From: Thermoplasmatota archaeon
GTDB lineage: Archaea; Thermoplasmatota; Thermoplasmata; Halarchaeoplasmatales; Halarchaeoplasmataceae
NCBI GenBank assembly: GCA_018334835.1
Contig: JAGXLF010000011.1
Location: forward strand, 1 to 33,583
DNA: 33,583 nucleotides
Direction: 5' to 3'
Part shown: piece by piece, positions 132 to 33,419 of the stretch
Layout: each line of letters opens with the position of its first letter
Numbering within the stretch: position 1 is the first letter of the stretch
Notes under the pieces: model-generated
Seen by the model: the letters and a program-made list of their open reading frames with translations, nothing else
What the model was told of the DNA's origin: nothing
Databases searched by the model: none
Position numbers and translations under genes: made by a program

Positions 132-148
132 ACATAATATGAGAAAAG

Positions 149-253
149 CGCCGAGAAGGGGATTCGAACCCCTGAGGTGCGAGGCACCACGAGATGTCTA
201 GTCCTTTTTAAGGATCTCCAATCTCGCGCCGTACCAGGCTAGGCTATCTCGGC
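149..253 (-). tRNA. tRNA-Ser(GGA) with a 20-nt intron
   Basis: Read on the minus strand, the acceptor GCCGAGA (253-247) pairs with TCTCGGC (156-150), and position 149 gives discriminator G. The D arm is GCC..GGC. The anticodon stem CGAGA/TCTCG closes a TTGGAGA loop with anticodon GGA at 219-217. A long variable arm follows (class II), and the T arm is AGGGG/CCCCT around TTCGAAT. The stem and loop form only if 20 nt (196-215) are removed after position 37, the usual archaeal tRNA intron site. The mature length is 85 nt. No CCA is encoded. The long variable arm, GGA anticodon and discriminator G all agree on serine. Confidence 0.93.
196..215 (-). other. tRNA intron at position 37/38 of tRNA-Ser(GGA)
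   Basis: These 20 nt interrupt the anticodon loop. They can form their own hairpin (TCCTT with AAGGA around AAA), and the neighbouring exon bases GGA can pair with the intron TCC, as in the bulge-helix-bulge substrate cut by archaeal tRNA endonuclease. The exact ends are ambiguous by up to two nucleotides because the dinucleotide AT flanks both junctions. Confidence 0.8.
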
Positions 254-8109: not shown

Positions 8110-8274
8110 TCAAGAGTGTTTCTTAAAACCTAGGTCTTCTGCGATCTCTCGGAAACACTGTCTACATACATGGAGACCGTATCTCCGGATTATACCGCGT
8201 TTCCGACCACAGCGTCTACAGCCCTCTTTTCTCCCGTAATCTTTATCTGGTTTCAAGCCCTCTTCTTCGCTCAT
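8110..8274 (-). CDS. rps14: Ribosomal protein uS14, zinc-binding short form
   Basis: A 54-aa small-subunit protein located between uL5 and uS8, as expected in the spc cluster. Four cysteines, Cys19-x2-Cys22 and Cys37-x2-Cys40 ([10 protein letters not shown] ... [11 protein letters not shown]), form a zinc site, and the C-terminus is LGFKKHS. The ATG overlaps the uL5 stop as ATGA, and the TGA stop is at 8112-8110 before the uS8 ribosome site. It is easily missed by length-filtered gene finding. Confidence 0.95.
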
Positions 8275-8792
8275 GCTTCATACACCTCCAAATCAAAAGC
8301 TTTCTCCATGAAATTTTTCGCTTCCTTTTTGGTCATCTTGTGTTCCTCCGGGATACTTTTAGACTGTTTTCTCCTGTGCTTTATACGCTGACCTTTCCTT
8401 CCTATTTCAACCGAGATATCCATCCCGAAAACACCTATCTCGGGATCATATGTTTCTTCTTCAAAATCGGTATAATCGCCTATACCAAAACTCAGATTTC
8501 CCTGTTCATCAAAACTACTTAAAGGTAACCTGTTTTCCTTCACCCAGAAAGCCTTCTTCAGAAAATCATAGGCTTTCTTTTTCCTCAGCGTAACCTTACA
8601 GCCTATCGGGTCTCCTTCCCTTATCCCGAATTCCGCATTAGTGGTCTCCGCAGTTGTTTCGACCGGCTGCTGATTTGTCAGCATCTCCAAAACATCGAAG
8701 GCCTTTCTGAGTTTTTCGCCTCCTTGACCCACACCAATATTGACTACACACTTGACCAAGCGAGGTTTTCTCATCGGATTGTAATTCTTCAT
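8271..8792 (-). CDS. rpl5: Ribosomal protein uL5
   Basis: A 5S rRNA-binding protein of the central protuberance that also touches the P-site tRNA. The pattern is [37 protein letters not shown], then [28 protein letters not shown], and the central [29 protein letters not shown]. The ATG overlaps the eS4 stop by four bases and the gene overlaps uS14 by four bases. Length 173 aa is typical. Confidence 0.95.
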
Positions 8793-9505
8793 ATTATACC
8801 CACCTCTGGTATCTCGATTATCGGTTTATCTTTTCCGATGATAAAGACATATTTTTCTACCGTTGTGATTTCAGATTCAAAATGAACAAAATTAGGCTGT
8901 GATCCTCTAATCACCTCGTATTCTTCTATAGTACCCAACTCACCTATATGATTTCCTCCAGTAACTAAAGCCATCTGTCCCTCACCAAATTGGAAAGCTT
9001 CGAGTATTTTTCTTGACGGCAATTGTACCTTCAAAACATCTTTCGTATTGTATTTACTTCCGTTCTCGCTCCTGATGTTAGTTCCGTCGTGAAGATTATA
9101 CTGGGTTATGCCGTCCTTCAGTGTAGTTTTATCCTTTATTTTGACTAGCTTCCATTCTGCCTGATCCTTATCGATGGGTAAAAGTCTAAATTTTCCCTTT
9201 TGATCGAACAGCACCCTGTAATTTTCCGATATATCTGGTATAGATATGACATCCATCAACCCGATTGGCCTGTTCTTATCAGTGGTTATTTTGCCGTCTA
9301 CCTCGACTTTTCTTTCTGCAAGTATGTGTTCGGCTTCTTTGGAAGTCTCAGTATATTTCAATATATCTCTCAAAATGACTACCAGCGGAATGCTCCTATC
9401 CGCTGAATGTGGGCCCGGAGTAGAACTAGGAGCCCAATACGACTCCTTGGTCGGTATCCCCCACTTCTCAGAAGGTATATTATAACGTTTGTTATGTTGG
9501 CTCAT
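8789..9505 (-). CDS. rps4e: Ribosomal protein eS4
   Basis: An archaeal/eukaryal small-subunit protein. An S4 RNA-binding domain lies at about residues 43-90 (IPLVVILRDILKYTETSKEAEHILAERKVEVDGKI), followed by the central domain and a KOW motif at about 178-200 (GQMALVTGGNHIGELGTI). The N-terminus (RYNIPSEKWGIPTKESYWAPSSTPGPH) is the normal basic leader, although more acidic than most. GGAGG stands seven bases before ATG 9505. It overlaps uL24 and uL5 by four bases each, so translation of the three genes is probably coupled. Confidence 0.95.
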   Translation of the reverse strand: MSQHNKRYNIPSEKWGIPTKESYWAPSSTPGPHSADRSIPLVVILRDILKYTETSKEAEHILAERKVEVDGKITTDKNRPIGLMDVISIPDISENYRVLFDQKGKFRLLPIDKDQAEWKLVKIKDKTTLKDGITQYNLHDGTNIRSENGSKYNTKDVLKVQLPSRKILEAFQFGEGQMALVTGGNHIGELGTIEEYEVIRGSQPNFVHFESEITTVEKYVFIIGKDKPIIEIPEVGII

Positions 9506-9870
9506 TCATTATCCTCCTCTTGTATGTTTTCTAACTTTTCCTTTCTCCATGGATCAGAGAGATCGAGATCTCGGATTTTAAGATTCGAAGGATGGACCCC
9601 AAATGGCTCTTTAGATTCATCGGCCTTTTCTACGGTCACGTCCTCTATAAAGACCTTCTCATTTCTCCTATCTACTTCCGCCACTTTGTCTATATGTCCT
9701 TTGAAGCTCCCTCTCATCACTTCGACCTCATCTCCTTCTATCACTGGAAGGCTGTTCGTACCATATCTATCTTTCAATCTTTCGGATAACATCGAGGACA
9801 TGATCTTTCTTTTCTTATGCTTAGGGGCGTTCTCCCGTCTTTTTCTCTGCTTTCTAGCTTTTTCACTCAT
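9502..9870 (-). CDS. rpl24: Ribosomal protein uL24
   Basis: Large-subunit assembly initiator protein near the exit tunnel. The N-terminus is very basic (KARKQRKRRENAPKHKKRKI). The KOW motif IEGDEVEVMRGSFKGHIDKVAEV is followed by KVFIEDVTVEKADESKEPFGVHPSNLKI. The C-terminus is acidic. GGTGATATGAA precedes ATG 9870. It overlaps eS4 by four bases. Confidence 0.95.
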   Translation of the reverse strand: MSEKARKQRKRRENAPKHKKRKIMSSMLSERLKDRYGTNSLPVIEGDEVEVMRGSFKGHIDKVAEVDRRNEKVFIEDVTVEKADESKEPFGVHPSNLKIRDLDLSDPWRKEKLENIQEEDNE

Positions 9871-9883
9871 TTCATATCACCTT

Positions 9884-10282
9884 CTACATTATCATAGATG
9901 CCGTAGCTCCGACCCGAGGCCACTTCTCAGCAGCTTCTCTAGCTACAGGCCCCTTGATCTCGGATCCTTTAGTTTCACCGTCTTCCTGTGTTAGGACCAC
10001 GGCGTTGTCTTCAAACTCTACCATGACTCCGTCCGCGCGACGGAATGGTCTCTTCTGCCTTACGATGACCGCTCTAGTAAGCTCTCTTTTCATCTCGGGA
10101 GTACCTTTGACAACGGATGCCACCACTTGATCTCCTATTCCTGCTTTAGGGTACCTTCTATGAACCCCATGATAGTTAATTACAGAAACGACTCTTACTA
10201 CTTTAGCACCAGTGTTGTCTATACACTCAAGTTCACTTCCTACTGAAAGTCCCTTAGTTTGATTACCTGCAACCCCTTTCAT
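9884..10282 (-). CDS. rpl14: Ribosomal protein uL14
   Basis: A conserved beta-barrel protein at the subunit interface. The signature ELECIDNTGAKVVRVVSVI and KAGIGDQVVASVVKG are visible. GVMVEFEDNAVVLTQEDGETKGSEIKGPVAREAAEKWP is the typical C-terminal half. The ATG overlaps the uS17 stop by four bases. Length 132 aa is normal. Confidence 0.95.
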   Translation of the reverse strand: MKGVAGNQTKGLSVGSELECIDNTGAKVVRVVSVINYHGVHRRYPKAGIGDQVVASVVKGTPEMKRELTRAVIVRQKRPFRRADGVMVEFEDNAVVLTQEDGETKGSEIKGPVAREAAEKWPRVGATASMIM

Positions 10283-10620
10283 CTCTTTTCACCCTTTTCT
10301 ATTACCACATAAGAAATACTCTTGCTTATAGGGCTACATTCCATTATCTTGACTTCATCTCCTTTGTCCACGTCTATACAAGGTGGAAGATGACTCGGAT
10401 AATGACTTTTTCTTTTTTCATATCTCTCATATTTAGGGACATAATTGAAATGATCTTTTCTTATTATCACGGATTTATCCATCTGAGTAGAATCTACTAC
10501 ACCCCTCATTATCCTTCCTCTCACAGATAGTGTTCCATGGAAGGGACAATTGTCGTCATCACAACTCTCCTCAGGGGGGTTCACTTCTACACCTATATCG
10601 CGTGCTTCGTCTTCTGCCAT
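10279..10620 (-). CDS. rps17: Ribosomal protein uS17
   Basis: A small-subunit OB-fold protein that binds 16S rRNA early in assembly. The archaeal N-terminal signature CDDDNCPFHGTLSVRGR (Cys20, Cys25, His28) is followed by KSVIIRKDHFNYVPKYERYEKRKSHYPSHLPPC and the C-terminal GDEVKIMECSPISKSISYVVI. The start ATG 10620 follows GGTTGATGAT and lies seven bases after the rnp1 stop. Confidence 0.95.
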   Translation of the reverse strand: MAEDEARDIGVEVNPPEESCDDDNCPFHGTLSVRGRIMRGVVDSTQMDKSVIIRKDHFNYVPKYERYEKRKSHYPSHLPPCIDVDKGDEVKIMECSPISKSISYVVIEKGEKR

Positions 10621-10627
10621 GATATCA

Positions 10628-10888
10628 TCAACCTAATTTCTTTATTCTATCTTCCGAACGATGTGTGAGTTTATTTCCATCCAATACATTATTACGACCA
10701 TTAATGGTCAACCTGAAATGATTGCCTTTTTTTGGGATCATCTTTTTTCTTTCATCCTCTATGACGAACATATTCTTGGTTTCGTCGATGACTTTTCCCT
10801 GCAACTCTTCGTATCCTCGGTAATCCGAATCGATAACTTCGAGGTCGGAGCCTATAAATTCAAAAGTATAAACTATATCTTCTGACAT
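10628..10888 (-). CDS. rnp1: RNase P protein component 1 (Rpp29/Pop4)
   Basis: A protein subunit of archaeal RNase P, which trims 5' leaders from pre-tRNAs. It acts with Rnp4 (Rpp21) on the RNA's specificity domain. This 86-aa protein shows the Sm-like barrel pattern GYEELQGKVIDETKNMFVIEDERKKMIPKKGNHFRL, close to the family's GLxGxVVDETKNT motif. GAGGTAAGGTAAT precedes ATG 10888. Its place between aIF1 and uS17 is the conserved archaeal position. Function is assigned from family and position. Confidence 0.92.
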   Translation of the reverse strand: MSEDIVYTFEFIGSDLEVIDSDYRGYEELQGKVIDETKNMFVIEDERKKMIPKKGNHFRLTINGRNNVLDGNKLTHRSEDRIKKLG

Positions 10889-10889
10889 A

Positions 10890-11192
10890 TTACCTTACCT
10901 CAACTGGGAACCCTTTCTCTTCAAGATAATCTTTCACAGTCTCTATATGATCTCCCTGCAGCTCGATACGGCCATTTTTAGTTGTTCCCCCTGCAGCGCA
11001 CTTTGTTTTCAATTCCGAAGCTAAATCACTTATATCGATATCGCTCGTATCTATTCCATCTATGATTGTCACTTTTTTACCGTATCGTCTTTTATCGGTA
11101 AATATCTCGATCTCCTGCTGTTCTCTAGCGATATCTTCACAAATGCATATCTCTTTTGGCAACCCGCAAGTCGGACACACTTCTTCCGCCAT
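10890..11192 (-). CDS. Translation initiation factor aIF1 (SUI1 family) with zinc-ribbon N-terminus
   Basis: This factor binds the 30S platform and helps select the start codon. The SUI1 core is [18 protein letters not shown]..., then [36 protein letters not shown]. The N-terminal Cys6-x2-Cys9 and Cys16-x-Cys18 ([15 protein letters not shown]) look like a zinc site, a form seen in a subset of euryarchaea. I start at ATG 11192, with GGAGG six bases upstream. A TTG codon three bases earlier is in frame. It lies between uL29 and rnp1 as usual. Confidence 0.93.
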
Positions 11193-11410
11193 CAATTTCC
11201 TCCTTTTGATTCATTTTCTTCTTCATTCATAATAGTCAAAATCCTAGCGATATTTTTTTTGACAGCCCTTATCCTTCCAGGACTCTCCGGAGCTCCACCC
11301 ATAGCAGCTACCCCCTGTTCATGAAGTAACTCTTCCCTCAATTCATATAATTTTTCTTCTCTTTCAGATGGATCCATCTCTCTTATCTCTTCTGTTTTCA
11401 ATAAAGGCAT
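11192..11410 (-). CDS. rpl29: Ribosomal protein uL29
   Basis: A small helical protein at the peptide exit of the large subunit, a docking region for SRP and nascent-chain factors. The 72-aa sequence has [30 protein letters not shown] and the C-terminal [19 protein letters not shown], both family marks. The start ATG 11410 follows GGAGGTGGAATGAT, which lies inside the end of uS3. Confidence 0.95.
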
Positions 11411-11411
11411 A

Positions 11412-12212
11412 TCATTCCACCTCCTCTTCTTCTACTTCGTCTTCTTCCTCGGTCTCCATCTCTTCTTCAGGTTCTTCTACTTCGTCTTCTTCCTCGATCT
11501 CCATCTCTTCTATCTCTTCTTCAGGTTCTTTCTCCTCTTCTTGGTCTTCACTTTTCTCTTCTTTCTTTTCTCCTTCTTCCTCGTCTTCACTAGTTCCTCC
11601 CTCTTCCTTCTCACTTTCTGGAGGAATTATCTCTATTTCATCGGGCAATTTCGCGTTTGGATCCATTATCTTGACCGTTACCCCGATAATGCCAAGTTTC
11701 AATTTTGCCTGTGCGAATCCTTCATCCATCCATTTTTTCCTTTCTTCTCCGCAGTACTTGATATGACCGTCCTGGAATTTCTCTACTCTATGTCTTGGGC
11801 CGCTGACCTTGCCGGAAAGGATGATCTGACAACCTTTAGCCCCTCCATCCATTATCTTTCTCACCGTAGAATGACCTGCTCTTCTGAAATACCATCCTCT
11901 CTCCAAAGAGGAGGCCAGTTTTTCCGCCATGATCTGAGCATTCAGTTGAGGGGTCTCAACTTCCTGTACTTCTATCTGTGGATTATCGAATTCGAATTTA
12001 TCCTTAATTTCCTCAGTAATTTCGCGAATCCTTTTACCCTTCCTTCCTATAACTAAAGCGGGTCTCTCCGTGTAGAGTGTGATCCTAGTACCCATCGGTG
12101 TTCTCGAGATATCAGCTCCTCCAAATCCTGCTCTTTCAGTTCTTTCTTGAAGGAATTCCTTCAGTATAACGCGGTCCATCTTTTCATTTATAAATTTTCT
12201 TTCTCTGGCCAC
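11412..12212 (-). CDS. rps3: Ribosomal protein uS3 with long acidic C-terminal tail
   Basis: Small-subunit protein lining the mRNA entry. The type-2 KH domain shows VIGRKGKRI near residue 55, and the C-terminal core ends near residue 200 (LGIIGVTVKIMDPNAKLPDEIEIIPP). About 65 further residues are nearly all Glu/Asp with some Lys and Met. Part of that tail is encoded by a 45-nt tandem repeat (see separate entry). The start is GTG 12212, with GGAGG seven bases before it; there is no ATG alternative nearby. Acidic uS3 tails are known from halophilic and some other euryarchaea, and this one is long. Length 266 aa. Confidence 0.95.
   Translation of the reverse strand: MARERKFINEKMDRVILKEFLQERTERAGFGGADISRTPMGTRITLYTERPALVIGRKGKRIREITEEIKDKFEFDNPQIEVQEVETPQLNAQIMAEKLASSLERGWYFRRAGHSTVRKIMDGGAKGCQIILSGKVSGPRHRVEKFQDGHIKYCGEERKKWMDEGFAQAKLKLGIIGVTVKIMDPNAKLPDEIEIIPPESEKEEGGTSEDEEEGEKKEEKSEDQEEEKEPEEEIEEMEIEEEDEVEEPEEEMETEEEDEVEEEEVE
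11427..11525 (-). repeat. 45-nt tandem repeat in the uS3 acidic tail
   Basis: On the plus strand TTCTTCTACTTCGTCTTCTT begins at 11427 and again at 11472, a period of 45 nt (15 codons). The copies agree almost perfectly for about 40 nt, then the second carries a 9-nt in-frame insertion before the shared TCAGG end. The units encode the EEMEIEEEDEVEEPEE and EEMETEEEDEVEE blocks. The in-frame period points to slippage or unequal exchange within coding sequence. Confidence 0.85.
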
Positions 12213-12214
12213 TA

Positions 12215-12661
12215 TTATGCCTCCTTTTCCTCCAATATTATTTCCAGATTTGTGGTTTTGGTATCATGGGGAGTGCTCCTACCCATCGCTCTAGGTCTGC
12301 GCCCCTCTATAGGACTTCCCTTGTGGGCAGCTAAGACCTTGATCATTAAATTTTCAGAATCTAATCCTTTATCTTCAGCATTCGAACGACATTCTTCGAT
12401 TTTAGCTTTCATCTTCTCACACACTTTCTTAGGATATCCGCCCGGACCTACACCTTTCTGGTGAGACACACGTTTTTTATGTTTCTTGTAAGGAACCGCC
12501 CTTTCTCCGGCGATCACATTATCTAATATCTCTAGAGCTTCGTCTACATCTTTTCCTCTAAGCATGTCACATACCTCTACTGATTTCTTGGGAGATATCT
12601 GAAGTTCACTCCCGTATGCCTTTGCCGTCTTTTCTGGATCAGTATCCATTGTATAACCCAT
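12215..12661 (-). CDS. rpl22: Ribosomal protein uL22
   Basis: Large-subunit protein whose loop lines the exit tunnel. The archaeal form shows AYGSELQISPKKSVEVCDMLRGKDVDEALEILDNVI, then AVPYKKHKKRVSHQKGVGPGGYPKKVC, and the C-terminal hairpin AAHKGSPIEGRRPRAMGRSTPHDTKTTNLEIIL. GAGGTGAAAATAT precedes ATG 12661. A later in-frame ATG (MDTDPEK) has no site. The end overlaps the uS3 ribosome site. Confidence 0.95.
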   Translation of the reverse strand: MGYTMDTDPEKTAKAYGSELQISPKKSVEVCDMLRGKDVDEALEILDNVIAGERAVPYKKHKKRVSHQKGVGPGGYPKKVCEKMKAKIEECRSNAEDKGLDSENLMIKVLAAHKGSPIEGRRPRAMGRSTPHDTKTTNLEIILEEKEA

Positions 12662-12672
12662 ATATTTTCACC

Positions 12673-13080
12673 TCATTTGAGCGGTATATATTTAGAAGAA
12701 CGTGTCGCTCCAATCCCTGGACCCGAATGTTCAACTTGTTTCCTCGTGAGGACGAATTCACCAAGGTAATGACCGATCATTTCAGGTTCTATCTTCACGG
12801 TCTTGAATTTTTCACCGTCATGTATAGCTATCCTCTTTCCAACGAACTCAGGTAATATTATCATCTCTCGCCTATGCGTCCGATAGACATCCTTATCTTT
12901 TTGTTCTATTCGCTCCAAAAGACGCTTCTCTTCTATGTTCAAACCTCTTTTCAAAGTTCTTCTCGCCCTTGCTGGAAGCACCTTTTTCAACTCGTCGAGA
13001 GACATATTCTTTAATTCATCTAGGGTATACCCACGATAAGTAAATTCTCGTTTGTCCCGTGAAACTCTATCATCAGCCAT
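12673..13080 (-). CDS. rps19: Ribosomal protein uS19
   Basis: Small-subunit head protein near the A site and the inter-subunit bridges. The pattern is EFTYRGYTLDELKNMSLDELKKVLPARARRTLKRGL, then THRREMIILPEFVGKRIAIHDGEKFKTVKIEPEMIGHYLGEFVLTRK and GPGIGATRSSKYIPLK. AAGGTGATTT precedes ATG 13080. Length 135 aa is normal for archaea. Confidence 0.95.
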   Translation of the reverse strand: MADDRVSRDKREFTYRGYTLDELKNMSLDELKKVLPARARRTLKRGLNIEEKRLLERIEQKDKDVYRTHRREMIILPEFVGKRIAIHDGEKFKTVKIEPEMIGHYLGEFVLTRKQVEHSGPGIGATRSSKYIPLK

Positions 13081-13086
13081 AAATCA

Positions 13087-13812
13087 TCACCTTTCTTCTT
13101 TCTTCTCCTTATCTTTCTTTTTCTTTTTGGACGATAATCTACCAACTTTTCTGCCAGGCGGAGCGTTAGATGACACCGTAGATGGAACACCCACGTGCTG
13201 ATGGTCACCTCCACCATGAGGATGGTCCACCGCATTCATCGCTATACCTCTCACTTTCAGCGGTCTCTTAGCTTTACTTCTGAAGCCTTTAGCTTTCTTA
13301 CCGGCTTTAGCTATAGGCTGTTCTGTATGTCCTCCACCAGCAACTATACCAATAGTTGCTCTACATCTATTATCGAGTCTTTTAATATTATCTGAAGGTA
13401 ATCTCAGAACGGTTTTCCTTCTTTCCTGTGCGATGACTGTGGCACTAGTACCTGCGCTCTTGACGAGTTTACCTCCGTCGAGAGGTTCCATTTCGATGTT
13501 GTACACGAAGGTCCCAACCGGTACATGACTCAGCGGAAGAACATTGCCCTTCTCGATACCCGAGTCAGGACCAATTTCTATTTTCTCACCGACCCAGAGA
13601 CCATGATTAGCTATGACAAAAGAGGTCTCACCGTTCTCAAATTCTACTTCCGCCAAAGGAGCCGTTCGGCCGGGAGCGTGGTGTATATCAACAACTTCTC
13701 CTTCTGTATCTTGACTTTTAGGGTATCCTGGCTTTGCTAGATGTCTGTGACTCGGAGACTGATAAGTAGAAGAACCTTTTCCTCTTCTTTGAGTTATGAG
13801 ACGCCTACCCAT
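13087..13812 (-). CDS. rpl2: Ribosomal protein uL2
   Basis: A core large-subunit protein needed for the peptidyl-transferase centre and subunit joining. The N-terminus MGRRLITQRRGKGSSTYQSPSHRHL, the middle IEKGNVLPLSHVPVGTFVYNIE, and the catalytic-centre loop AMNAVDHPHGGGDHQHVGVPSTVSSNAPPGRKVG are all archaeal uL2 marks. The ATG follows the uL23 stop TAG directly, with GGGGTG in the end of uL23. The basic C-terminus KKKKKDKEKKEER is typical. Confidence 0.96.
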   Translation of the reverse strand: MGRRLITQRRGKGSSTYQSPSHRHLAKPGYPKSQDTEGEVVDIHHAPGRTAPLAEVEFENGETSFVIANHGLWVGEKIEIGPDSGIEKGNVLPLSHVPVGTFVYNIEMEPLDGGKLVKSAGTSATVIAQERRKTVLRLPSDNIKRLDNRCRATIGIVAGGGHTEQPIAKAGKKAKGFRSKAKRPLKVRGIAMNAVDHPHGGGDHQHVGVPSTVSSNAPPGRKVGRLSSKKKKKDKEKKEER

Positions 13813-14082
13813 CTAGAACACCCCTATTCTCATTCCTATCTCTTCTGCTGAATATTCATCTGTGAACTTGACTATCGCCCGTTTTCCGTTCTTATCGATC
13901 CTAGTGTTGACTTTCTCTACATCGACCTCAAACAATTCCTCGATCGCATCGACTATTTGTGGCTTTGTCGCCTCTAAATCAACTATGAACTCTAGTTTAT
14001 TCTCCTCTTCCATCTCCATCATGGTCTTTTCAGTGACGTAAGGGTGATATACTATCTTGTGGGGAGATTCAAACTCGGCCAT
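13813..14082 (-). CDS. rpl23: Ribosomal protein uL23
   Basis: A 23S rRNA-binding protein at the tunnel exit and docking site for SRP. The family pattern is PHKIVYHPYVTEKTMMEMEEENKLEFIVDLEATKPQIVDAIEELFEVDVEKVNTRI. I start at ATG 14080-14082. GGAGG from the end of uL4 is about ten bases upstream. An in-frame TTG at 14091 is less likely. It directly abuts uL2. Confidence 0.94.
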   Translation of the reverse strand: MAEFESPHKIVYHPYVTEKTMMEMEEENKLEFIVDLEATKPQIVDAIEELFEVDVEKVNTRIDKNGKRAIVKFTDEYSAEEIGMRIGVF

Positions 14083-14084
14083 CT

Positions 14085-14855
14085 TTACCAATCCTCCAAT
14101 TCTTCTATAGCTTTGACGCTGAAGATGGCTAACCTGCCCATAGTTCCTCCAGGCGCCATGTCATCTATAGTTAGATTCTTGGGGCTTTTTACCGTGACAC
14201 CCGGAAGATTGGAAAAAGCCCTTCTTCCATCCGCATTTTCGCTTAGAACAACCAATAGACTTTTTGGAGTTCTATACTTCCTGTTCCGCATCTTACCTTT
14301 ACCTGATCTGATATTTTTTCCTTTTTTAGCTCTTTCAATATCCGAATATATGCCAAGCTTTTCCAATAAATCAACGGCTTCCTTCGTCTTATGAAGATCT
14401 TCAATCTCATCCTCCACGACTATAGGAAATTCTAAAGAATCATCATCTTTTATCTCGTGTCCTCTATTTTTTATCAATTCAATATCCGTCATCGCAGCGA
14501 GGGCAGATCTTCTAGCTTTAGCTTTTGCTTGTCTATTCAATTTTTTACCTAACTTTTTCTCGGCTTTCGGAGGGTGTGCTTTTCTTCCACCACGGGCTTG
14601 AGGACTCTCGGCGGCTCTAGCGCCACCATATTGTGTCAGCCTCTGTACTCGGGCCATACCTTGACCAACACCTTCCATCTCAGTTGCATGTCTCATCCCC
14701 GCTTCTGGAGAAGGCCCGTAAGGTTGTTTTTTATTTGCTTCGAAAGACTCAATTGCCTTTTTTACGATATCGGGACGTATCTCCTCCATGAACGAAGAGG
14801 GCAAATCCAATTTTTCTTTCTTCTTCCCTTCTAAACTGTATATCCCTGTCTGCAT
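14085..14855 (-). CDS. rpl4: Ribosomal protein uL4
   Basis: Large-subunit protein whose loop forms part of the exit-tunnel constriction. In archaea it begins with QTGIYSLEGKKKEKLDLPSSFMEEIRPDIVKKAI. The tunnel loop is RVQRLTQYGGARAAESPQARGGRKAHPPK. The C-terminal half has RSALAAMTDIELIKNRGHEI and a NLTIDDMAPGGTMGRLAIFSVKAIEEL end. GGGGGT at the end of uL3 serves as its ribosome site. Four bases separate the two genes. Confidence 0.95.
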   Translation of the reverse strand: MQTGIYSLEGKKKEKLDLPSSFMEEIRPDIVKKAIESFEANKKQPYGPSPEAGMRHATEMEGVGQGMARVQRLTQYGGARAAESPQARGGRKAHPPKAEKKLGKKLNRQAKAKARRSALAAMTDIELIKNRGHEIKDDDSLEFPIVVEDEIEDLHKTKEAVDLLEKLGIYSDIERAKKGKNIRSGKGKMRNRKYRTPKSLLVVLSENADGRRAFSNLPGVTVKSPKNLTIDDMAPGGTMGRLAIFSVKAIEELEDW

Positions 14856-14859
14856 TCAT

Positions 14860-15858
14860 TTAACCCCCTTGATTAGATTCAGTCGATATGTATGTGAGAT
14901 TCGGCTCATGAACTTCATATCTATCATCTCTTACAGCATCTCTCATAACAACTAACCTCTTAGACGGACCAGGTATCGAACCGTGCAATATAACATAATC
15001 GTTTTCTATCACACCATAATTTATGAAACCTCCTTCAGGTGTCACCTCTTCACCATTTTCACCGACTTTAAGTACACGTTTATTGAATTCCGTTCTTTGA
15101 TGATAACCCATCTGACCTGCTTGAGGAACGGTCGGTCGAGTATAACCCGGTCTAAAAACACCGGTATTTCCAACATTTCTAACGGATTTACTGTTCTTAT
15201 GCTGAAGGAGTTTTACACCCCATCTCTTAACATGGCCTTGAAAACCTTTACCTTTAGTTATGGCAGAAACGTCTATCATCCTTCCCGATTCACAGAAATC
15301 CTGGTAGTTGAGCTCATCTCCAAGCATATCCTCCCCCATATCTATCCTTTCGGGTAAAGCTCCCCCGCCCATTCTAACTTCCATTATCTCAGGAGTCTTA
15401 TTAGGGGTTCCTGAAACTTTTTTTGGCTGTGTATTGATTATGGCTCTAACTTCATCCACAAGGTCTCTATCGATTTTATCCCACATCTTGTCTGTATTGT
15501 AATTGTTTGGGATGGGAAGTCTCTTTTTCAACGATTCATCTACATTGCTAGCCCAAACTTCCCCCATAGTTCTCAAACCTTCATTGGTCTCTTCATAAAA
15601 CCTAAGACCACTGACTTTAACAGAGGGAACCTCTACTACAGTAATCGGAACCCTTACCTCTTGTCCAGAGGTAGTACTCTCTTTTCTATAATCCACGACA
15701 AAGGCATGGCTCATTCCAGCCTTATATCCTGGAAAGCCCTGTATCTTGGGTTGGCCTTCCCACTCGGGCCACGATCTTATATTGGGGATCGTTTTTTTAG
15801 CGCGTTTTCGGGGCGAATATCCCATCGAACCTCTTCTTGGATGATGTGTTTCTACCAT
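14860..15858 (-). CDS. rpl3: Ribosomal protein uL3, first gene of the superoperon
   Basis: Large-subunit protein near the peptidyl-transferase centre and an early assembly organiser. The archaeal long form (332 aa) starts HHPRRGSMGYSPRKRAKKTIPNIRSWPEW, continues with GFPGYKAGMSHAFVVDYRKES, and has the central GKGFQGHVKRWGVKLLQHKNSKSVRNVG and MGYHQRTEFNKRVLKVGENG. GAGGTG stands five bases before ATG 15858. It follows a leader of about 225 nt with strong hairpins, which suggests control of the whole operon at this point. Confidence 0.96.
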   Translation of the reverse strand: MVETHHPRRGSMGYSPRKRAKKTIPNIRSWPEWEGQPKIQGFPGYKAGMSHAFVVDYRKESTTSGQEVRVPITVVEVPSVKVSGLRFYEETNEGLRTMGEVWASNVDESLKKRLPIPNNYNTDKMWDKIDRDLVDEVRAIINTQPKKVSGTPNKTPEIMEVRMGGGALPERIDMGEDMLGDELNYQDFCESGRMIDVSAITKGKGFQGHVKRWGVKLLQHKNSKSVRNVGNTGVFRPGYTRPTVPQAGQMGYHQRTEFNKRVLKVGENGEEVTPEGGFINYGVIENDYVILHGSIPGPSKRLVVMRDAVRDDRYEVHEPNLTYISTESNQGG

Positions 15859-15875
15859 ACATACACCTCGATCTA

Positions 15876-16085
15876 GTTGACTATGTAGATTCTAGGATCT
15901 TATCCTTAAACATAGCATTGCGGATTCTCAGGACTGTATCCATCGATCCCAGAGCATGACTCTACGGACTTCAAACTGCGTCCTGAGGTCCATTGACCGT
16001 GACGTGTTCATGTAGGGATCCTTACTGGATTGCCCTTACACGTCTGGTCAACAGACGAATGTAATGGGTCATTACAGAGCTTTTG
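15876..16085 (-). promoter_or_regulatory. Structured leader of the ribosomal superoperon
   Basis: Between the likely transcription start and uL3 lie several inverted repeats. Hairpin A pairs TGTAATG (16060-16066) with CATTACA (16070-16076). Hairpin B pairs CGTCTG (16041-16046) with CAGACG (16052-16057), extended by TTACA (16036-16040) with TGTAA (16060-16064). A and B share 16060-16064 and exclude each other. Further down, CTCAGGAC (15927-15934) pairs with GTCCTGAG (15980-15987) around an inner AGAG/CTCT hairpin (15951-15963). Most archaeal leaders are short, so this is probably a cis-acting control element. Which protein or ligand acts on it cannot be read from sequence. Confidence 0.5.
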
Positions 16086-16111
16086 TATTTAACTCTTTCC
16101 CAAGAAAGAAT

Positions 16112-17798: not shown

Positions 17799-18944
17799 TC
17801 ACAATTTCTTCGCCATGTCTGTTTTTTCCCACGTGAACTCAGGATCGTCCCTCCCAAAGTGGCCGTAGGCTGCAGTTTTTTCGTATATCGGTCGCAGTAG
17901 ATCGAGATGATCTATTATAGATGCAGGTTTCAAGGGAAATCTCTCCCTAGCAATATCCTCGATTTCCTTTTCCGGTATGTTGTTGGTTCCATAGGTATTT
18001 ACCAGTATGCTTGTGGGTTCAGGTACGCCTATAGCATAACTCAATTGAATCTCACACTTCTCGGCTAGACCTGCTGCAACAAGATTTTTTGCTACATATC
18101 TTGCCATGTATGCTCCCGAGCGATCCACCTTAGAAGGGTCTTTCCCCGAGAAGCATCCCCCACCGTGGCTTCCATGACCTCCGTAAGTGTCAACTATGAT
18201 CTTCCTTCCAGTCAACCCTGTATCCGCCTGAGGACCTCCCAGAACGAATCTGCCTGTCTCATTTATATTGTAAGAAGTATCTTCGTCTAGTAAATCTCCG
18301 CAGATGGGTTCTATGACTTCCCGTTTTATCTCTTCTTTCAATTTCATTTCGTCTACATCAGGATCGTGCTGAGCTGCAATGACAACGTCCTTAGCCCTTT
18401 TCGCAATATCACCTTCATATTCGAGAGTCACCTGCGACTTTCCATCAGGCCGCAGATAAGGGAGCTGGTCTTTTTTGCGTACTTCAGCTAGTCTTTTGGA
18501 AAGTTTATGAGCCAAAACGATAGGTTTAGGCATCATCTCCTCCGTTTCATCCGATGCGTAGCCGAACATTATACCCTGATCTCCTGCACCCTGCACTTCT
18601 TTCTCAACGCCCTGCGCTATGTCGGGACTCTGTGAATGAAGTGCGGTCATCACACCGCACGATTCTGCTTCAAATCCATACTCGGCTTTCGTGTAACCTA
18701 TGTCCGCTATGGTTCCACGAACCACCTCGTTAACATCAACATACCCCTCACTAGTAACTTCACCAGCAACCAAAGCCAAACCGTTGGTCAAGATGGTCTC
18801 GCAGGCGACCCTAGAGTGAGAATCCTGTCTTATAAGTTCATCCAATATTGAATCGCTGATCTTATCAGCCATCTTGTCTGGATGTCCTTCAGTTACCGAT
18901 TCAGATGTGAGAAGGTATCTTCTATCTCTACTCCTTCTTTTCAT
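17799..18944 (-). CDS. metK: S-adenosylmethionine synthetase, bacterial/eukaryal MetK type
   Basis: Makes S-adenosylmethionine from ATP and methionine. The 381-aa sequence follows bacterial MetK throughout: [18 protein letters not shown] (residues 14-31), the ATP-binding [12 protein letters not shown] (119-130), the loop [18 protein letters not shown] (255-272) with the P-loop-like GGCFSGKD, and IGVPEPTSI near the C-terminus. Most archaea use an unrelated archaeal-type synthetase, so this gene looks acquired from bacteria. Cys replaces the usual Ala in GGAFSGKD. ATG 18944 has no clear ribosome site; a weak TATA-like CTTTAAGTTA lies about 55 nt upstream. The radical SAM enzyme and methyltransferases nearby use its product. 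Confidence 0.95.
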
Positions 18945-29504: not shown

Positions 29505-32500
29505 TTGAAGATTCTTTATGTAGATGACGATGAAGGCAAGAGGGAAGAAGCCAAAACTTTCTTAGAGAGTGCGATGGATGATTTTAAGGTCGATACTGCT
29601 TCATCAGTGAAATCCGGGATGGATAAATTAGAGGATGATGATTACGACGTAATAGTTTCTGATTATAAGATGACTCCAAAAGACGGATTGGATTTTCTTG
29701 AGGAATTGCATGGATTAGGGAAAAATGTACCTTTTATCATGCTCACCGCTAAGGAAAAAGAGGAAGTAGCAAAGAAGGCATTGAATTCGGGGGCTGATCG
29801 ATATATCAGGAGGCAGGATGATCCAAAAAACCTCTACGAGTTCTTGAGTCGAGTTATAATCCAAGAGTTTGAACATTACGATGAAAAAAGGGAAAGACGG
29901 TTACACGAAACTTATTTCCAAGATCTATTTGAAAGCTCACCAGAGGGTATAGTTCTTTTGGATTCTGATGACAGAATAATCAAAGCAAATGAGTCCTTCG
30001 AAAAAATATTTCAGTATGATATTGAGGATATCAAGGGCGAAAAAATCAATGATCTTATAGTTCCGGATGACAAGAGAGATAAAGCTTCCTCCGCCTCTAA
30101 AAACGTACTCTCCGGCGATTCAATAAGGATGGAAACGCAAAGGGAAAGAAAGGACGGGGGTATGGTAGATGTTTCCATACTTGGATATCCCATAAAGTTC
30201 GAAGGGGAACAGATAGGGGTTTTCGGAATCTATAGAGATATAACCGACCGGAAAAAAAGAGAGAGGAAGATAAAAAATTTGTACCATGCCTTGAGCAAGA
30301 TGGGAACTTGTGATTCCGAAGATGAAGTCTATGATTTCGTTTTGGATTCGGCAAAGGAAATTTTAAATTTCAAATCAAGCAGTATAATGATAGCTGAGGG
30401 GGACTATCTTGTTACAAAAAAGGTGATCGCTGAAAATGTAGAGGTGGGAGATAAAGAGCCGATAGATGAGGGTATTAGAGGACTCACTTATCAAAACAAG
30501 AAATCATACTTGATCGAGGACCTTGATGAACGGAAGGAAGCAAAACCTACAGATCCCGACTTCCAATCGGTAATCAGTATCCCCATAGGCGAGGAAGGTG
30601 TATTCCAGGCACTCTCATATCAAAAAGGTTACTTTGACGAGTTCGATCTAGAGATGGCCGAAGGACTTGTCTTTCACATGGAAAAGATATTAGAAATTAT
30701 CAAAAGTAGAAGGGAACTACAGAAAAGTGAGGAGAAGTATCGGGCCATCTTCGAGTGTGCTGGCGATGCGATCTTCGTGATCAAAGATTTTGAATTGGTT
30801 GACTGTAACAGAAGGACTGAAGAGATCTTTAAGATAGAAAAAGAGGATGTCTTGGGTCATAATCCATGGGAATTCGCCCCAAAAGAACAACCCGATGGTA
30901 AAAATTCTAAAAAGTATGGCAAGAAGATGATAGAAGAGGCCCTTGCCGGAGAATCTAAATTTTTTGAGTGGGTCCTTGAAACCTTCGATGGAAGAAAATT
31001 GTATACAGAAGTCAGTTTAAACAAGTACGAAATCGATGAAGAAGAGTACGTGATGGCTGTCGTAAGAGACGTTACTGAACGGAAAGAAGCGGAGAGAAAA
31101 CTCGAAAAAAGGAATGAAAAGATAAAAAAATTGCATGAAAAGGCTATGGATTTGGAAAGGTGTGAGAGTGAGGAAGAGATCTGTGAATTGGTGATTGAGG
31201 CTTCCGAGGAGATTTTAGATTTTTATGCCGGCAGCATCGATTTCGTAGAAGATGGTGAATTCGAAGTGAAAGCCACTATCAGAGGGGTTCAGGAAAAAGG
31301 TACCACATATCCTATAGAGGGTGTTGCTGGAAAAACATTTAGAAAAAGTAAATCATTTTTGATTCGAGATATGGATGAAGAAGAGGATGCTGTACCTAAA
31401 AGAGAGTCATATCGTTCGGCTATCAGTATACCATTCGGTGATATCGGGGTTTTCCAAGCTCTTTCGGAAGAGAAAGATGATTTCGATGAGAAGGACTTAG
31501 AGTTGGCCGAAATACTTGTGAATCATGCCTCCGAAGCTATAAATCGTCTAAGATCTGAGAAAGAAGTGAGAAGAAATAAGAGGAGATATGAAACTCTCTT
31601 TGAAGAGAATCCCGAAGCGATTGTTGATGTCGATGAGAATTTCAAAATCATCGCTGTAAATGAACAGTTCGAAAATCTTTTCAACTATAAAGAGAAGGAG
31701 ATTCAGGGAAAATCTATTAAAGATCTGATAGTACCAGAGGACAAAATTGAAGAATCGGAAGAACTTGATGAAAAGTCTAAAGAAGGCTACTTTGAACATG
31801 AGACGGTGAGATTGACAAAAGATGGTGAAGAAGTGCATGTAGCGATCACTGGGAGACCTATAAAACAGGAGGGAAAAATTCATCATCTCGCTGTTTACAG
31901 AGATATAAGTGAGAGGAAAAAGGCGGAGAAAGAACTCGAAAGAAGGAATGAAAAGATAAGGAATTTGCATGATAAAGCTATGGAATTCGAGAGATCTAAA
32001 GGTGAGGAAAAAATCTGTGAATTGGTGATCGAGACCTCCGAAGAGATTTTGGACTTTCAAGTCTGCGGCATCGATTTTGTTGAAAAAGGAGAGTTCGTCC
32101 CCATAGCTTTTTCAAGTGAGATAGAAGATGGTTTCATAAAGAGGAAGGTTGAAGAAGCAGGCATCAGCAGGAAAGTATATCAAGAGAAGGAAAGTATATT
32201 GGTTAAAGATCGGAGAGAGATAGATTACTCTAAACCCGTGGTGAGTGATTATAGATCCTCCATCACTATCCCAATGGGAGATTTTGGTATCTACCAGGCA
32301 TTATCGACGGAAGTCGGTAAATTTGATGAAGGAGATATGGAACTGGCTGAGATACTGGTCAACCATGCTACCGAGGCTATAAATCGTCTGAGGTCCGAGG
32401 AGGCTTTGAAAAATAAAAATAAGAAGGTAAAAGGACTACATGATACCGCAATCCAGATGGAAAGATGTGAAGAAGAAGAGGAAGTCTTTGATTTGACAGT

Positions 32501-33419
32501 TGAAGCGGCAAAAGAAGTCCTCGGCTTTTATGATTGTACTATCGCTATTGCAGATGAAGATAACGATGAGTTCACCATCAAAAAAACCTATAGAAGCGAT
32601 GTGGAAGAGGGTGCAAAAATTCCTATGGACCTAGGATATCTAGGGGAGACTTTCAAAAACAGATCTTCCTACCTTACAGAAGACATCGTCAAAGATGAGA
32701 TAGCTGAACCTGCTACAGACAAATATAGGTCAGCCATCAGTGTGCCTATTGGAGATATAGGCGTTTTTCAGACCATGTCGACTGAGAAGGAGGATTACGA
32801 TGAAGATGACGTTGAGATGGCCGAGACTCTCATCTCTCACGTTTATCAGGCAGTCCAGAGGATAAAAGGAAAAAAGGACTTGGAGAAGAGTGAAAAGAAA
32901 TACAGATCAATATTCGAAAATACAGGCACAGCGATGCTGATGATCGAAAAAGATGGAACGATATCTCTAGCTAATAAAAAAGCAGAACGACTTGTGGGAT
33001 TTTACGAAGAAAGTATCGAAGGTGAAAACTATACTGAGTTCGTTGTGGAGGAAGACAGAGAACGGATAAAAAGAAGACACCATAAACGGTTGAAAGACCA
33101 CGAGAATCTTCCTAATGAATACAATTTTCAGCTTTTAACAAAATATGATGATATAAAAGACATCCATATGATAGTGAACAAGATCCCGGGAACAGAGAAA
33201 ATAATCACCTCCCTATTGGATATCACTGAAAAGAAAGGAATGAAGAGGACTAAAAATCAGTTAGAGAGTTTGATCCAAGATATCGAAGATGAATTCGAAA
33301 GGATGGAGACCTATCTGAATCTTTTGGAAAAAGATGAACTAGATAAGGGTCAGAAGAAAAACATAGAAAAAATCAAAGAAGTCATCGAAGAGAATAAGAA
33401 TGTTCTCGACAAGAGGTGA
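29505..33419 (+). CDS. Large REC-PAS-GAF sensory protein without a kinase domain
   Basis: A soluble 1304-aa protein. A receiver domain (1-125) has Asp7-9, phospho-acceptor Asp53 (VIVSDYKM) and Thr81, but Arg103 stands where the conserved Lys is expected. Then come PAS (about 130-255), GAF (258-400), PAS (405-525), GAF (540-690), PAS (695-815), GAF (820-970), GAF (975-1125) and PAS (1130-1250). The four GAF domains share KIKxLHxxA, SAISIPxGDIGVFQALS and ELAExLVNH blocks. The last 55 residues are a helix (LESLIQDIEDEFERMETYLNLL) that resembles a dimerisation helix, but there is no phospho-His and no HATPase domain before the stop. It probably relays signals to a partner kinase. TTG start with GAGGTG. 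Confidence 0.88.
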   Translation: MKILYVDDDEGKREEAKTFLESAMDDFKVDTASSVKSGMDKLEDDDYDVIVSDYKMTPKDGLDFLEELHGLGKNVPFIMLTAKEKEEVAKKALNSGADRYIRRQDDPKNLYEFLSRVIIQEFEHYDEKRERRLHETYFQDLFESSPEGIVLLDSDDRIIKANESFEKIFQYDIEDIKGEKINDLIVPDDKRDKASSASKNVLSGDSIRMETQRERKDGGMVDVSILGYPIKFEGEQIGVFGIYRDITDRKKRERKIKNLYHALSKMGTCDSEDEVYDFVLDSAKEILNFKSSSIMIAEGDYLVTKKVIAENVEVGDKEPIDEGIRGLTYQNKKSYLIEDLDERKEAKPTDPDFQSVISIPIGEEGVFQALSYQKGYFDEFDLEMAEGLVFHMEKILEIIKSRRELQKSEEKYRAIFECAGDAIFVIKDFELVDCNRRTEEIFKIEKEDVLGHNPWEFAPKEQPDGKNSKKYGKKMIEEALAGESKFFEWVLETFDGRKLYTEVSLNKYEIDEEEYVMAVVRDVTERKEAERKLEKRNEKIKKLHEKAMDLERCESEEEICELVIEASEEILDFYAGSIDFVEDGEFEVKATIRGVQEKGTTYPIEGVAGKTFRKSKSFLIRDMDEEEDAVPKRESYRSAISIPFGDIGVFQALSEEKDDFDEKDLELAEILVNHASEAINRLRSEKEVRRNKRRYETLFEENPEAIVDVDENFKIIAVNEQFENLFNYKEKEIQGKSIKDLIVPEDKIEESEELDEKSKEGYFEHETVRLTKDGEEVHVAITGRPIKQEGKIHHLAVYRDISERKKAEKELERRNEKIRNLHDKAMEFERSKGEEKICELVIETSEEILDFQVCGIDFVEKGEFVPIAFSSEIEDGFIKRKVEEAGISRKVYQEKESILVKDRREIDYSKPVVSDYRSSITIPMGDFGIYQALSTEVGKFDEGDMELAEILVNHATEAINRLRSEEALKNKNKKVKGLHDTAIQMERCEEEEEVFDLTVEAAKEVLGFYDCTIAIADEDNDEFTIKKTYRSDVEEGAKIPMDLGYLGETFKNRSSYLTEDIVKDEIAEPATDKYRSAISVPIGDIGVFQTMSTEKEDYDEDDVEMAETLISHVYQAVQRIKGKKDLEKSEKKYRSIFENTGTAMLMIEKDGTISLANKKAERLVGFYEESIEGENYTEFVVEEDRERIKRRHHKRLKDHENLPNEYNFQLLTKYDDIKDIHMIVNKIPGTEKIITSLLDITEKKGMKRTKNQLESLIQDIEDEFERMETYLNLLEKDELDKGQKKNIEKIKEVIEENKNVLDKR
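31089..32403 (+). repeat. Internal duplication of a PAS-GAF unit in the sensor gene
   Basis: The DNA from 31089 (GCGGAGAGAAAACTCG) and from 31923 (GCGGAGAAAGAACTCG) starts two copies of one module, about 834 nt apart. Both continue with AGGAATGAAAAGATAA and ATCTGTGAATTGGTGAT, and their ends share GCTATAAATCGTCT (about 31538 and 32378). The nucleotide likeness goes beyond what protein constraint alone needs, which points to a fairly recent in-frame duplication. Confidence 0.7.

Follow-up and report, generated by a model that had tools for sequence, protein, structure and literature searches.

How do archaea keep the synthesis of their ribosomal proteins in balance, and does the leader of the ribosomal superoperon carry an RNA that could serve this end? 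We examined the question in a window of 33,583 nucleotides, the whole stretch of DNA that was analysed, from a Thermoplasmatota archaeon. The superoperon is read from the minus strand. Its first gene is uL3 (14860–15858; Pfam PF00297, NCBIfam L3_arch), which is preceded by the Shine–Dalgarno (SD) sequence GAGGUG (15864–15869; a 6-nt match to the anti-SD with a spacer of 5). The next genes, assigned by Pfam, are uL4, uL23 and uL2 (13087–14855), whose products are candidate ligands of the leader. The remaining operon examined (8271–13080; Pfam) consists of uS19, uL22, uS3 and, after a gap, SUI1, RNase P p29, uS17, uL14, uL24, eS4 and uL5. The 227-nt leader of uL3 folds better than its dinucleotide shuffles (z −3.8). 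A search of the window with Rfam returned only two tRNAs; in the leader it gave no relevant hit, even with E-values up to 10.

Three other features of the window were recorded. The tRNA-Phe called at 148–253 (minus strand) has the anticodon AAA and extra length, and is probably an intron-containing tRNA misread by ARAGORN. The S-adenosylmethionine synthetase at 17799–18944 (minus strand) has PF00438/PF02772/PF02773 domains instead of being the usual archaeal-type enzyme. The reading frame at 29505–33419 (plus strand) encodes a multi-domain sensor protein of 1304 aa with a receiver and repeated PAS and GAF domains.

The conserved leader RNA

The leader contains a conserved RNA motif at 15992–16052 on the minus strand, the strand of all leader and promoter features given below. 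It is the only match of our covariance model, R1, in the genome of the window (54.7 bits, E 2.6e-11). The motif is made of a long P1/P2 stem, interrupted by an internal loop, and of a hairpin, P3, that branches from this stem. In P1, the 5′ strand GUUGACC (16046–16052) pairs with GGUCAAU (15992–15998); most of these pairs are compensated, and their ensemble probability is 0.96–0.999. P2 is formed by GACGUGU (16038–16044) and ACACGUC (16001–16007), with both covariation and the ensemble fold behind it. When the full leader, as predicted, is folded as an ensemble, the pair probabilities of P1/P2 are 0.88–0.999. The internal loop between the two helices has an A on one side (16045) and AC on the other (15999–16000), and both elements are invariant in 82/82 sequences. 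P3 (16015–16035) reads GGG-CAA-UCC-AGUAA-GGA-U-CCC and has a 3×1 internal loop. Its two helices covary, with 98% and 96% of cells paired and G-C/C-G/U-A swaps, and its CAA is present in 54 of the 82 sequences. The consensus across loci is GACC-A-GACGC..GGG-CAA-UGC..GCA-N-CCC..[P4]..GCGUC-AC-GGUC. The second branch, P4, was found in all 68 sequences outside the family of the window, and has been lost in that family. The P4 insert is more stable than shuffles (mean z −2.2), and 57 of the 68 have the sequence UU[UC][UC][GC], against 13.6 expected. In one further family (f6; loci L047, L049, L052, L054 and L055), a second conserved hairpin, GCGAGGUUAGCGAAGA(G/U)ACCCUCGC, lies between the motif and uL3.

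The covariation is that expected of a ribosomal protein (r-protein) leader and establishes the motif as a conserved secondary structure. When 100 sequences were aligned to the covariance model, a procedure that leans towards the structure, 91% of 1860 cells were paired and double compensatory changes occurred at 15 of the 19 pairs. The covariation score of this alignment was 0.407; shuffles scored 0.150 (0/500 match), and no slid control exceeded 0.11. The result was similar for 82 sequences aligned by MAFFT, which is not fitted to the structure: 90% of cells were paired, 15/19 pairs were doubly compensated, none of the measures was reached by any of 500 shuffles, and slid versions of the structure paired 30–45% of cells. 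RNAalifold, supplied with no structure, recovered the outer stem with compensatory changes at 8/10 pairs. A coding explanation is ruled out by the lengths of the motif, which are spread over the three classes modulo 3 (40/61/49), and by closed frames, with no open frame in 85 of 150 sequences.

Promoter and competing hairpins

A TATA-box-like sequence, TTAAATA (16086–16092), is the predicted promoter and ends 33 nt upstream of P1. This arrangement is the usual one. A box of the type YTWAWATA was found upstream of the motif in 141 leaders, with 94 full matches versus 8 in shuffles, and it usually ends 25–45 nt upstream of P1. Archaeal transcription starts about 22–26 nt after the TATA box. From this geometry and the TATA scan, the start region is predicted at 16060–16066 and the transcript of the window should begin near 16063, so that the motif, just downstream of the box, is the predicted 5′-terminal domain of the mRNA.

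The earlier note on this DNA had placed a structured leader at the head of the superoperon, with two mutually exclusive hairpins just after the predicted start, in the layout of an attenuator or a protein-controlled switch. The structured leader itself is borne out by covariation and conservation. The complementarities behind the two hairpins are also real: on the minus strand, UUACA (16064–16060) can pair with UGUAA at 16076–16072 (hairpin A) or with UGUAA at 16040–16036 (hairpin B), the latter lying outside the 6-bp core of hairpin B, CGUCUG/CAGACG. As functional, exclusive folds, however, A and B do not hold up. We compared 14 members of the family of the window in an alignment with the promoter as its anchor. 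Not one pair of hairpin A is compensated; of its five pairs, two fail to form in roughly half the sequences, and the 74% of cells that are paired fall below its own shuffles. The core of hairpin B has no compensatory change either, with 69% of cells paired and one pair broken in 10/14, and its outer part (43% of cells paired) is no better than slid controls. The paired bases thus vary without compensation, which the earlier note had itself named as a refutation of its proposal. Nor would the two folds compete just after the start of the transcript, since the 5′ arm of hairpin A (16076–16072) falls at about −13 to −9 relative to the predicted start and would not be transcribed. In the full-leader ensemble, the pair probability of the B core is 0.000, and the conserved fold pairs GACGUGU of "hairpin B" with the downstream ACACGUC.

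Attenuation by a terminator gained no support, because U-tracts are not enriched between the motif and uL3 (T5 or longer in 2/133 leaders versus 3.9 expected). A switch between A and B can be credited with the complementarity in the window, with a B core that has stayed almost unbroken within the genus, and with the folding of the isolated 5′ piece, which forms B before the 3′ strand of P1 is made; B is conceivable only as a transient co-transcriptional fold, until the 3′ strands of P1/P2 exist. Set against the zero compensation, the untranscribed arm, the vanishing probability of B and the missing U-tracts, this leaves the switch barely credible, and we consider it largely refuted.

The earlier note also described a third domain at 15927–15987. 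The window does have a strong hairpin here, with an 8-bp closing stem and −23.9 kcal/mol for 15994–15927. It is not seen, as read by eye, in the leaders of four congeners; the domain is thus a hairpin specific to the window, in a lineage-specific spacer.

Distribution of the motif

A DNA search of relatives gave matches mainly to the 5′ part of the leader. A common motif was present in all uL3 loci of the same class that have a complete upstream region, and the motif or a variant of it was seen in loci from further families. Of 395 Thermoplasmatota genomes, 281 have a match to R1, in nearly every case a single one, and the named loci with matches confirm this phylum. No match was obtained in 116 genomes of Methanobacteriota (the phylum of Methanobrevibacter) or in 148 of Halobacteriota (the phylum of Archaeoglobi). 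In the fetched loci, the matches are on the sense strand upstream of uL3, at 8–201 nt from its start codon in the loci checked. Most of the Thermoplasmatota genomes examined thus have the leader fold in one constant position. The motif is not essential, because family f9 and a few others (L162–L172, L222, L227, L229 and L230) do not have it. The TATA box of these lineages is only ~45 nt from uL3, and the whole leader is therefore missing there. We also noted a contig labelled Candidatus Nealsonbacteria (L177) that has the same leader motif and a uL3 that is 86% identical to that of the window; it is most likely a mis-binned archaeal contig.

A compact RNA near its own promoter could also be a separate small RNA gene that stands before uL3 by chance. 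We regard this as very improbable: the genes upstream of the motif differ between loci while the adjacency to uL3 is kept, the motif comes within 8–20 nt of the start codon in several lineages, and the leaders have no U-tract terminator.

R-leaders have been predicted by two signs, covariation and a location within the 5′ UTR of operons for r-proteins (Eckert and Weinberg 2020, PMC7247131). The motif covaries and lies consistently upstream of the r-protein operon, within the 5′ UTR as delimited by the predicted transcription start.

Possible mode of action

On balance, we favour the reading that 16052–15992, like its counterpart in most Thermoplasmatota, is a cis-acting, autogenous r-protein leader of the uL3-uL4-uL23-uL2... 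mRNA. An r-protein encoded by the operon and made in excess over rRNA would bind the leader RNA, and the bound protein would lower expression of the operon. The putative binding site is probably the invariant A / AC internal loop of P1/P2 together with the CAA loop of P3. Inhibition of uL3 translation initiation seems more probable than the ending of transcription, and coupled effects on the downstream genes would follow.

Occlusion of the ribosome-binding site by the leader was examined through the accessibility of the SD. Overall, this was 0.327 versus 0.364 in shuffled controls, with a P of 0.017 that is not corrected for relatedness. The effect is weak, and in the window the accessibility was not lowered against shuffled controls; general SD sequestration by the leader was therefore rejected. 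A fixed occlusion geometry is also unlikely given the 8–201 nt spacing to the start codon. Some lineages (L037, L038 and L040) do sequester the SD strongly. Here, and also in L033 and L034, an SD-sequestering hairpin can arise from the stretch that separates the motif from uL3. In L033, L034 and L037, this hairpin has another possible pairing partner further upstream (e.g. GAGAGUGGAUUCUCUC..GAGAGGGAGAA), which may make it a lineage-specific switch.

A 5′-terminal fold could instead act as an mRNA-stability or processing element that blocks decay from the 5′ end or provides a cleavage site and senses no protein. Such a role would suit a fold that, in most species, lies within ~10–20 nt of where the mRNA is predicted to begin. 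The loop that is invariant in 82/82 sequences and the conserved features of P3 and P4 are not obviously needed for it, and we consider it unlikely.

The leader RNA may also sense a ligand that is not encoded by the operon, such as L7Ae, another RNA-binding protein, or a metabolite. This would fit with the lack of a 23S rRNA mimic: no match to 23S rRNA was found with the covariance model or by a scan of conserved positions in 11 23S sequences. A hairpin in domain I of the 23S rRNA of the same genome (GCAAUCCGUAAGGAU) is similar to the P3 of the window (CAAUCCAGUAAGGAU), but its equivalents in other families vary independently, and the resemblance is a coincidence. Several known r-leaders likewise have no rRNA mimicry (PMC7247131). 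For L7Ae, a RIP-seq study is reported to suggest translational control in archaea (PMC5539422). Inspection of the motif by eye revealed no kink-turn consensus of the kind that L7Ae would bind, and all known ligands of r-leaders are encoded by a regulated gene (PMC7247131). An outside ligand is accordingly improbable in our estimate.

If an autogenous leader is the correct reading, the identity of the protein can be approached by analogy. In Escherichia coli, L4 is the established ligand of the structured 5′ leader of the S10 operon. Because uL4 is thus the ligand of the corresponding bacterial operon, and because it is the predicted ligand of the archaeal family RF03135, we tentatively rank it first, at a confidence that stays low. 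uL3, uL2, uL23 or another protein may also be candidates.

Relation to known leaders

The leader in Thermoplasmatota resembles that of the E. coli S10 operon in being structured and in preceding the equivalent operon; it differs in gene order and architecture and has no Rfam match to bacterial leaders. The archaeal S15 and eL15 r-leaders are also predicted r-protein leaders (PMC7247131), but they belong to other genes, have other structures and show no Rfam match to the present one.

The nearest known element is RF03135, the L4-Archaeoglobi leader. An L4 leader has been predicted in Archaeoglobi upstream of rplC-rplD-rplW-rplB and was rated borderline (Eckert and Weinberg 2020, PMC7247131); the main text does not name Thermoplasma. 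Both RNAs are tied to the uL3-uL4-uL23-uL2 operon, and their layouts look similar: P1/P2 is a closed stem whose loop is asymmetric, P3 has the form GGG..CAA..CCC, and there is a P4 branch. In 40 Halobacteriota loci, the top four matches of R1 fall exactly on the RF03135 element, on the sense strand and in register. In total, 9 of 22 matches are in register on RF03135; these are weak (best E 0.0046) and come from few lineages within one group of Halobacteriota. R1 missed the element both in Archaeoglobi and in the haloarchaeal copies of RF03135. Simple membership of RF03135 was rejected, as the leaders of Thermoplasmatota score below the gathering score of the family and there is no reciprocal match, R1 having none in the 148 Halobacteriota genomes.

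RF03135 was found in 140/247 genomes of Halobacteriota and in the Haloferax volcanii control. The fetched sequences lie 235–480 nt upstream of uL3. In most Halobacteriota, the element is inside a methyltransferase reading frame (PF02598, Methyltrn_RNA_3) that precedes uL3, whereas the motif of Thermoplasmatota is non-coding. Such embedding was seen in Archaeoglobi and Halobacteria (e.g. L233:1563–1647, L267:1501–1600 and L297–L336). In about nine Halobacteriota loci, the PF02598 frame is broken and the element persists. RF03135 is either partly a coding artefact or a regulatory RNA embedded in an open reading frame.

The likeness in architecture and CAA loop is suggestive of homology between the two RNAs, but does not establish it. 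That they are one ancient uL3-operon RNA, embedded in PF02598 in Halobacteriota and free-standing as a 5′ leader in Thermoplasmatota, is an idea we take seriously while holding it to be less probable than its opposite. If true, an r-protein sensor would have moved between a coding and a non-coding context with its fold and operon kept.

Conclusion

In most Thermoplasmatota, the superoperon is headed by a real structured leader, conserved across the phylum and unrecognised by Rfam. Only a handful of archaeal cis-regulatory RNAs are known or predicted (PMC7247131). The present one stands at the head of the largest ribosomal operon, covaries strongly and occurs in several classes of a single phylum. 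It offers two invariant loop elements for mutation, and lineages with cultured members are among those that carry it. Through this uL3 leader, the way in which archaea balance the synthesis of their ribosomal proteins becomes directly testable.
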